Assembly: GCA_013822275.1 (NCBI GenBank)
Contig: PNKC01000002.1
Coordinates: forward strand, 1-64,000
DNA length: 64,000 nt
Source: Anaerolinea sp.
GTDB taxonomy: Bacteria > Chloroflexota > Dehalococcoidia > Tepidiformales > Tepidiformaceae
Direction: 5' to 3'
The notes under the pieces were generated by a model, which was not told the origin of the DNA, did not search any database, and saw only the letters and a list, made by a program, of their open reading frames with translations. Of the stretch, positions 8,456-52,380 are shown piece after piece (positions within the stretch are counted from its first letter, which is position 1; each line of letters begins with the position of its first letter). Both the position numbers and the translations under genes were made by a program.

Positions 8456-8590
8456 GCGGAGCCGCGCTGTGAAAGGAGCGGTTGGTGACGCCGTAGCCGT
8501 GTGCTGCGAAGCGGGCAAAAGGTCCCGTCGCACGCCGGGCGTCCCGTACAAACGCCCGGCAACCGCTCCCTGGCGGTCGCGGCTCGGATT
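8456..8590. repeat. Palindromic repeat family B, copy 1
   Basis: The right arm (8560-8590, CAACCGCTCCCTGGCGGTCG followed by CGGCTCGGATT) pairs with a degenerate left arm at 8456-8486 containing GGAGCCGCG and GGAGCGGTTGG. The same arms occur at 51683-51822. It lies between convergent genes. Confidence 0.65.
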
Positions 8591-50523: not shown

Positions 50524-50997
50524 CTACTCGTACGGCTGGATGACCAGCGTCTGCCACTGGGCCGGGTCCGGGACCGAACCGGGGTCGGTCAGGTAGACCT
50601 CGCGGATCGGCTCGGACGGGCTTTTGGCGTTTTCGGCGAGCCAGGCAGTGATGGCGTCGTAGACAGGCATCAGGGAGTCGTAGGGGCCGGTGTGGAGGAC
50701 CTGGACCGCTGGTCCGCCTGAGAGGCTGACGGGCTGCATGGGGCCGCTGCCTTCGATCGGCGAAGCCAGGGGGAAGACGGCTTCGACGTCAACGGCCGCC
50801 GGCGTGACGGAGTGGTATTGAGCGAAGGGCGGTCCCGCAAACCCGGCGCCGTGCTGGGAGATGTAGGCGCCGAGTTCGGCGAAGGCGCGGCCGAAGAAGG
50901 CCGGCAGCGCGTCCATGGGGACGGTTTCGCGTATAGCGAGGCCGTCTTGCGGCTGGAGGGTGATGTGTTCGACCTTGAAGGTTGTCTGCGTGCTCAT
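50524..50997 (-). CDS. GyrI-like effector-binding (AraC E-domain) protein
   Basis: 157 residues with the duplicated beta-alpha-beta-beta layout of GyrI/SbmC and the effector domain of AraC-family regulators: KVEHITLQPQDGLAIRETVPMDALPAFFGRAFAELGAYI at the N terminus and GGPAVQVLHTGPYDSLMPVYDAITAWLAENA in the second half. No DNA-binding domain, so it is a stand-alone small-molecule-binding protein. Confidence 0.83.
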   Translation of the reverse strand: MSTQTTFKVEHITLQPQDGLAIRETVPMDALPAFFGRAFAELGAYISQHGAGFAGPPFAQYHSVTPAAVDVEAVFPLASPIEGSGPMQPVSLSGGPAVQVLHTGPYDSLMPVYDAITAWLAENAKSPSEPIREVYLTDPGSVPDPAQWQTLVIQPYE

Positions 50998-51143: not shown

Positions 51144-51277
51144 ACACGCATGCCGAGTTCGCCGCAAGGCGAAACGGGGGAACCAAACTCCTGGGGTGTA
51201 TTCCCACGCAAGTGGGATAGGCGACTCCCTTCGCCGAACCCGTCAGCTAACCCCGTAGGCAAGAGGGAGAGGCGTGG
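51144..51277 (+). ncRNA. Cyclic di-AMP riboswitch (ydaO/yuaA type)
   Basis: The conserved blocks appear in the right order and spacing: GGGGGAACCA, CTGGGGTGTATTCCCA (GGGGTGAATCC-like), GGGATAGG, CGCCGAACCCGTCAGCTAAC, CCCGTAGGCA and GGGAGAGG. The outer helix can form between CACGC at 51145-51149 and GCGTG at 51272-51276. This RNA class binds c-di-AMP and normally switches off genes for wall turnover or osmolyte/potassium uptake. A TG-extended TACAAC box just upstream (51140-51145) is a possible promoter -10, though it overlaps the RNA start. Confidence 0.92.
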
Positions 51278-51299
51278 CAGCCGCTCAGCCTGCCGCAAA

Positions 51300-51376
51300 G
51301 CCTCTCATCGTCCCTGGTGCGAATGCGCCCGCCCTCACGGCGGGGCGGCTTCGTTACCTCCGATGAGTCTGGAGGC
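51300..51376 (+). promoter_or_regulatory. Candidate expression platform masking the ribosome site
   Basis: CTCATCG (51304-51310) can pair with CGATGAG (51361-51367), and GCCT (51300-51303) with AGGC (51373-51376), enclosing part of the GGAGG Shine-Dalgarno at 51371-51375; between them lies a CCCGCC/GGCGGG hairpin. This fits translational control by the riboswitch. Confidence 0.45.
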
Positions 51377-51384
51377 GACCACAG

Positions 51385-51567
51385 ATGCTTCGACCCGAAT
51401 CGGCTCCCTGGTGGCGGCGGTTGTTCACCAACGCCATGACCCCGGCGTACGTGGTGGTGCGCGATGACTCGCAGCGGCGCTGTCCGGAATGCCGGGCGGC
51501 CTACGACCTGCGGGATGCGTATTGCCCTTCCTGCCATGTGGCCACGCCCGAGTGGCGTTTCGGCTAA
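51385..51567 (+). CDS. 60-residue zinc-ribbon protein under c-di-AMP riboswitch
   Basis: The C-terminal half has CPECRAAYDLRDAYCPSC, two CxxC pairs 11 residues apart, a zinc-ribbon knuckle; the N-terminal half is WWRRLFTNAMTPAYVVVRDD, basic then hydrophobic. No family recognised. The start ATG follows GGAGG by 9 nt and the gene is the only one between the riboswitch and a strong terminator at 51638-51668, so it is the sole apparent target. Role unknown; a regulatory or adaptor protein is possible. Confidence 0.75.
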   Translation: MLRPESAPWWRRLFTNAMTPAYVVVRDDSQRRCPECRAAYDLRDAYCPSCHVATPEWRFG

Positions 51568-51601
51568 GGCGCGATTACAGACGGGCCAGTTCCCTCCTCT
51601 T

Positions 51602-51669
51602 GTGCGCCGTTTTCCTGGCGGCGCACGCCCCTCCAAGCAGGCCACCCGAAAGGGTGGCCTGTTTGGTTG
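51602..51669 (+). terminator. Intrinsic terminator after the zinc-ribbon gene
   Basis: A 10-bp stem CAGGCCACCC/GGGTGGCCTG with a GAAA loop (51638-51661) followed by TTTGGTTGT. A GTGCGCC/GGCGCAC hairpin (51602-51626) precedes it. Confidence 0.8.
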
Positions 51670-51682
51670 TGAAAGCGACAGG

Positions 51683-51822
51683 CAATTCCGAGCCGCGACC
51701 GCCAGGGAGCGGTTGGTGCGCCCATGCACGGAGCACCTGAATCCGCCGACCGGTCCCATTCGATTCCGAAGACCCGCTGCAGAGCCCGGCGACCGCTCCC
51801 TCGCGGTCGCGGCTCGGAATTG
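51683..51822. repeat. Palindromic repeat family B, copy 2
   Basis: The left arm (51683-51715) contains AATTCCGAGCCGCGACCG then AGGGAGCGGTTGG, and the right arm (51790-51822) carries its inverse with one or two mismatches. This is a strong 33-bp inverted repeat around a 74-bp centre. A degenerate copy is at 8456-8590. Confidence 0.78.
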
Positions 51823-51837
51823 CGGCGCGCGGCCCCC

Positions 51838-52380
51838 TCAGCCCGCGGCGCGGCGCGGTTGGCTGGTCTGCGGGACGATGCGGCGGCCGAGGACGGACTG
51901 CAGCCAGGCGATATCCGCCTGGAGGTGGGCGACCTGGCGTACGCGGGTGGTGCGCGCCCAGCTTTCGGGGCTGCCAGGCTCGGTGCGGAGCGAGCGTTCT
52001 TCTTCCGTGAGACGGCGGGCGGCGCCGGACATGCGCTGGCGGAGGATTCCTTCGATGGCCTCCCCTTCGCAAACGCCGGCCCTGGCCAGGGCGAGGGAGA
52101 AGCGAGGCGAATCGAACGCCTCTTCGCGGAGGACGGTGGTGACTGCCGTGGCGAGGCGCTTCTTGCCGGCGCCCGTGAGGCTGAGGGCGCGGCGCATGTG
52201 GCCACTGGGGCCGCGCCCGTCCTCGGCTCGGAGGAGCCCTTCTTCGATGAGGGCGTCGACCCGGCGGTAGAGGGTGCTGCGCGTCGCCCTGACCCCGGCG
52301 GCGGCGAGGTGGTCCAACACCTGGTAGGGGTGCGTTGGGCTGGCGGAAACCGAGGCGAGGATGGGAAAGTCGTCGTTCAT
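51838..52380 (-). CDS. PadR-family transcriptional regulator
   Basis: 180 residues. The N-terminal winged helix has SPTHPYQVLDHLAAAGVRATRSTLYRRVDALIEEGLL, the PadR pattern, followed by RRALSLTGAGKKRLA and a long C-terminal helical half with a second PadR-C-like helix set (HLQADIAWLQSVLG). These are usually repressors of detoxification or stress genes. The divergent target nearest is the dipeptidase gene. Confidence 0.85.
   Translation of the reverse strand: MNDDFPILASVSASPTHPYQVLDHLAAAGVRATRSTLYRRVDALIEEGLLRAEDGRGPSGHMRRALSLTGAGKKRLATAVTTVLREEAFDSPRFSLALARAGVCEGEAIEGILRQRMSGAARRLTEEERSLRTEPGSPESWARTTRVRQVAHLQADIAWLQSVLGRRIVPQTSQPRRAAG

Follow-up and report, generated by a model that had tools for sequence, protein, structure and literature searches.

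What does a c-di-AMP riboswitch control when the only gene behind it encodes a 60-residue protein? The described targets of this riboswitch class are mostly K+ and amino-acid transporters, osmotic genes and cell-wall genes (PMC7266159, PMC10117811, PMC3766115). The gene at the locus studied here encodes neither a transporter nor a wall enzyme, unlike the classical c-di-AMP regulon of K+/osmolyte transport and cell-wall hydrolase genes. We analyzed this locus within a stretch of 64,000 nucleotides (the window) and compared it with its counterparts in Tepidiforma and relatives (Dehalococcoidia, Chloroflexota), a little-studied family represented by 38 genomes. The explanation that best accounts for the locus as a whole, and that we consider probable, is a c-di-AMP-controlled single-gene mRNA, working as an OFF switch, for a small zinc-ribbon protein. 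The coordinates of its features are collected in Table 1.

Table 1 Features of the riboswitch-protein unit, its flanking genes and a second riboswitch-linked gene of the source genome
Feature	Coordinates	Strand	Evidence or remark
c-di-AMP (ydaO/yuaA) riboswitch aptamer, RF00379	51141..51276	+	cmscan, 97.2 bits, E 8.9e-22
P5-loop strand CUCCCU, aptamer pseudoknot	51225..51230	+	complementary to 51264-51269; loop/tail covariation
3'-tail strand AGGGAG, aptamer pseudoknot	51264..51269	+	overlaps, and so competes with, the anti-sequestering helix
GAGAGGC, 5' strand of the anti-sequestering helix	51267..51273	+	motif in 21 homologous leaders; altered but paired forms elsewhere
Small hairpin GGCAG...CTGCC within the anti-sequestering helix	51276..51294	+	kept in the leader alignment
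GCCTCTCATCG, partner of 51267-51273 or of 51361-51376	51300..51310	+	
CGATGAGTCTGGAGGC, Shine-Dalgarno region, sequestrable by 51300-51310	51361..51376	+	covariation; MFE and centroid folds
Gene for the 60-aa zinc-ribbon-like protein (CPEC...CPSC, C-terminal PEWRFG)	51385..51567	+	21 family members; pN below pS
CCCTCCTC, conserved anti-Shine-Dalgarno-like stretch of the 3' UTR	51592..51599	+	CCTCC count against shuffles
3' UTR hairpin 1	51601..51627	+	folding and covariation
3' UTR hairpin 2, probable intrinsic terminator, 15 bp	51633..51666	+	folding; 5/12 pairs changed on both sides
GyrI-like gene, left flank	50524-50997	opposite to the unit	
PadR-like gene, right flank	51838-52380	opposite to the unit	
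72-aa zinc-ribbon protein gene	source genome, C19:34014-34229		downstream of an RF00379 riboswitch

The c-di-AMP riboswitch of the original prediction is borne out by the covariance search, which is strongly significant. The RF00379 match covers the full length of the model (positions 1-134) and, at 97.2 bits, lies far above the model's gathering score of 38; it is the sole Rfam match within the window. The P5 loop and the 3' tail of the aptamer are complementary to each other, and across 66 riboswitches of the family the two strands covary (ACUCCC/GGGAG, UCCGA/UCGGA and CCUUCC/GGAAGG). The cognate run in this set has a mean of 5.48, compared with 4.23 for permuted partners, and none of 200 permutations reaches it. 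A pseudoknot is described in the ydaO RNA (PMC5393176), and the same complementarity between P5 loop and 3' tail can be read in the crystallized ydaO sequence printed in that paper. The DAC domain of c-di-AMP synthase occurs in 33 of the 38 family genomes and in all 22 of those of good quality; on the basis of this domain, the host family makes c-di-AMP. No DAC gene was found in the source assembly, which is 77% complete. Binding of c-di-AMP by the aptamer and a response of expression to it are predicted from the sequence.

Small open reading frames arise easily in G+C-rich DNA, and the window holds many spurious frames. The 60-aa frame could in that case be a chance frame or a leader peptide, with the riboswitch controlling a larger neighboring gene. 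Several results make this reading extremely improbable. The gene starts with ATG, preceded 8 nt upstream by the Shine-Dalgarno sequence GGAGGC. A six-frame search of 99 genomes recovered full-length homologs with 51-64% identity in 20 further genomes, all from the same family. R31, C33, P34, C36, Y40, Y46, C47, C50, P55, E56 and W57 are invariant in the 21 sequences, and among them are the two CxxC pairs (C33/C36 and C47/C50, CPEC and CPSC) that had been seen in the protein at the outset. In the codon comparison of the 21 genes, the nonsynonymous proportion is below the synonymous one in 208 of 210 pairs; dN/dS is about 0.05-0.5 in most close pairs and 0.89 in a single pair that is very close and differs at few sites. 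By this measure, the protein is under purifying selection. A GGAGG Shine-Dalgarno sequence and a start are likewise kept in 21/21 genes, about 5-9 nt separating it from the ATG or TTG once the start had been corrected in four of the loci. A lack of conservation in relatives, which would have counted against the original prediction, is not seen: the gene is present in 21 of the 38 family genomes and absent from the remaining 17, including all of genus g12.

In a profile search across 294 genomes of the class, matches within the family scored at least 92 bits, and nothing else exceeded 31.5 bits. These other matches are just generic zinc ribbons and were rejected as homologs. Given this gap in score, the protein family is lineage-restricted; no full-length homolog was found outside the family, and none on plasmids.

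For a gene of unknown function, few clues are as good as its pairing with a riboswitch. At this locus the pairing is invariant. All 21 loci encoding the 60-aa protein have an RF00379 riboswitch on the strand of the gene, 75-133 nt upstream of it (cmscan of 20 loci gave 20 matches, and the 21st, L054, was linked via its coordinates), and the gene is thus always preceded by the riboswitch, a point that the original prediction had proposed to check. The unit of riboswitch and protein holds together while its neighbors change, and this variation from genome to genome again argues against a larger target, as do the strong double hairpin that comes next and the location of the following genes on the other strand. 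The small gene had also been called the only target. This stands for the transcript, which has no further gene between riboswitch and terminator and is flanked on both sides by genes of the opposite strand, but not for the genome: the source genome contains at least four RF00379 riboswitches, and the 60-aa protein is therefore the sole target of the transcript and not of cellular c-di-AMP. The invariant pairing suggests that control by c-di-AMP extends past the genes of salt balance and the cell wall for which it is known.

Two neighbors of the unit in other genomes were considered as partners and rejected. In eight relatives (L066, L068-L073 and L076), a prs-like gene stands directly upstream of the unit on the same strand, and in HR29 it stands on the unit's other side; in our own reading of its sequence, it probably encodes a ribose-phosphate pyrophosphokinase. 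This gene is not near the unit in the source genome, which argues against an operon with it. A conserved downstream gene on the other strand, found in several relatives, is not near the unit in the source genome either.

The leader contains two helices that use the same strand in different ways. Both strands of the anti-sequestering helix, GAGAGGC::GCCTCTC, are present in essentially all 21 leaders, and at other riboswitches of the family the helix is changed yet still paired (GGGAGAGAC::GTCTCTC and GGAGGC::GCCTCC). The sequestering helix, GCCTC::GAGGC, covers the Shine-Dalgarno sequence and is lengthened in the source genome by TCATCG::CGATGA. Its core is invariant, so no covariation is possible there. 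Its flank covaries (extension 44 versus 31.2, permutation p 0.003; p 0.01 after dereplication), with pairs 5-9 not significant individually, and locus G015 carries a two-sided G-C to U-A change. When the RNA of the window is folded, the minimum-free-energy structure contains the sequestering helix and the centroid structure contains the GAGAGGC::GCCTCTC helix. A scan for sigma-70-like promoters found none. Together with the pseudoknot, these helices make three competing pairings, and in light of the known behavior of the riboswitch class we read the leader as a probable OFF switch of translation.

We propose a model for this control. At high c-di-AMP, the aptamer and its pseudoknot would form. 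The pseudoknot would take bases from the GAGAGGC::GCCTCTC helix and release GCCTC (51300-51304), which would then pair with GAGGC of the Shine-Dalgarno region (51372-51376) and turn translation off. At low c-di-AMP, GAGAGGC would trap GCCTCTC, leaving the Shine-Dalgarno sequence free and allowing the protein to be made. In Bacillus thuringiensis, c-di-AMP drops on K+ limitation (PMC6488665).

The reverse direction is that c-di-AMP binding frees the Shine-Dalgarno sequence, so that the protein is made at high c-di-AMP. Such an ON switch appears unlikely to us. It would draw on the ligand-free minimum-free-energy fold, which already sequesters the Shine-Dalgarno sequence and from which release could in principle need the ligand. 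However, the pseudoknot of the bound aptamer and the anti-sequestering helix share bases (51267-51269), and ligand binding should therefore favor sequestration. Moreover, the characterized c-di-AMP riboswitches, those of kdpFABC and rpfA, are OFF switches that act by termination (PMC6488665, PMC10117811). The OFF switch proposed here differs from them in that its control looks translational, whereas kdpFABC and rpfA are described with terminators.

The strong terminator claimed after the single small gene corresponds to the second of two 3' hairpins, a probable intrinsic terminator. The pair of hairpins is very stable (-50.9 kcal/mol, z -9.2), and both covary in relatives, where two-sided changes affect 8 of the 20 pairs, a result reached in 0 of 500 shuffles. 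The U-tract of the terminator is weak (GUUUGGUU), and a simple terminator scan did not call it.

Upstream of these hairpins, the 3' UTR raises the question of whether the RNA itself is the product. CCTCC, mostly in the form TTCCCTCCTC, occurs within 50 nt past the stop codon in 18 of the 21 loci, compared with a mean of 5.6 and a maximum of 12 in shuffles. A covariance model of the 3' UTR element (CCCUCCUC followed by both hairpins) gives strong matches at this locus alone in each genome. With the covariation of the two hairpins, these results would fit a c-di-AMP-controlled small RNA, consisting of a single-stranded CCCUCCUC and two hairpins, as the functional product, with the frame secondary; its targets would be Shine-Dalgarno sequences in trans or its own mRNA. 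We rate this reading as quite improbable, since the protein is under purifying selection with its cysteines and the PEW residues invariant. Genomes without the protein gave at most weak matches to the element, namely 35-bit matches in four genomes of one genus. A pairing of the 3' UTR CCCUCCUC with its own Shine-Dalgarno sequence or with the P1 tail was rejected, as cognate partners do no better than permuted ones. The 3' end might act as an anti-Shine-Dalgarno regulatory RNA.

We then asked what the protein resembles. The statement that it fits no family agrees with the model searches, in which all Pfam and NCBIfam models stay below their cut-offs (best Pfam score 20.9 bits against 28.9; best NCBIfam score 13.1 against 80). 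It shares with Zn_ribbon_15, DZR and bL32 the two CxxC pairs ten residues apart and a rubredoxin-like knuckle. The matches are weak (Pfam E 7e-4, bL32 E about 0.05) and partial, mostly over residues 22-51, and the PWWRR N-terminus and the PEWRFG C-terminus belong to none of these families. Assignment to a known zinc-ribbon family is not supported, all scores lying under the curated cut-offs. Comparison with PDB sequences gave no significant match, bL32 being marginal (E 0.048, residues 30-51 only), and a bL32 paralog is not supported, given this short match and the lack of a significant fold match.

The AlphaFold model of the protein is mediocre (pLDDT 69.8, pTM 0.41), with a helix near the N-terminus (residues 9-15) and a zinc-ribbon region of moderate confidence. 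Foldseek comparison of this model with solved folds returned no match at E 0.001; at the top of its list are RanBP2-type knuckles, and lower down are L40e-like ribosomal proteins (E about 0.2-2). Most likely, the protein forms a small zinc ribbon in its C-terminal part, preceded by an aromatic and basic helix at the N-terminus (PWWRR), and it presumably binds zinc. Our guess is that it may serve as an adaptor that binds to RNA, to the ribosome, to RNA polymerase or to a partner in the membrane. Under the OFF-switch model, this zinc-ribbon adaptor would be made when c-di-AMP is low.

The source genome holds another such arrangement. At G000:C19:33807-34229 (L002, L139), a c-di-AMP riboswitch stands directly before the gene of a 72-aa protein (MPALQEAPPKSCPKCRG...). 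Like the 60-aa protein, this one is small, has two CxxC pairs and lies directly downstream of an RF00379 riboswitch; outside the cysteine motifs, the two have no evident sequence relation as judged by eye. The 72-aa protein is weakly like TFIIB/RPC10-type ribbons. It is far more conserved than the 60-aa protein: most genera of the family show 99-100% identity, and the others 81-96%. Its leader is different and, in several genomes, carries a hairpin resembling a terminator. Of 20 family loci tested, 19 have the gene linked to the riboswitch, and in other families of the class it is found under an RF00379 riboswitch at six loci or more. Thus, the theme of a riboswitch before a small zinc-ribbon protein recurs.

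A wider scheme would be that c-di-AMP controls both zinc-ribbon proteins as small regulators by riboswitch and so reaches the transcription or translation machinery, while the 3' end of the mRNA doubles as an anti-Shine-Dalgarno RNA. We regard this combined scheme as doubtful. Should the two proteins prove to be regulators, c-di-AMP would work via a second layer.

The locus resembles the RF00379 class in its full-model aptamer, in the pseudoknot it shares with crystallized ydaO and in an expression platform of competing helices, but it differs in its target, a single downstream gene whose 60-aa product belongs to no known family. Judged by the papers searched, the 60-aa gene is an undescribed kind of target for a known riboswitch class, and a zinc-ribbon target would represent the new kind of c-di-AMP output that had been envisaged for it. 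None of these papers mentions a c-di-AMP riboswitch together with a zinc ribbon. The invariant pairing links an undescribed protein family, and separately the very conserved 72-aa one, to c-di-AMP. Cultured members of Tepidiforma exist (PMC10284905), which makes tests of binding, of expression and with reporters feasible.

Other genes behind riboswitches of the family encode an MFS transporter, a SulP permease and a cytidylate-kinase-like protein. In several relatives, at loci including L100 (G031:C20), L088 and L092, the gene behind the riboswitch is a KamA-like radical SAM gene that scores below NCBIfam cut-offs and possibly serves a beta-amino-acid osmolyte. In the source genome, a divergent riboswitch (64 bits; G000:C4:31889-32047, L004) stands before a gene of a membrane glycosyltransferase family.

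Just past the terminator of the 60-aa gene lies a 32-nt inverted repeat (51682-51713 and 51792-51823), whose arms are 97% complementary and 78 nt apart. Its core, GAGCCGCGACCG..AGGGAGCGG, is found again at 8563-8585, where 0.04 occurrences would be expected by chance in the window, and it looks like a dispersed REP-like repeat.
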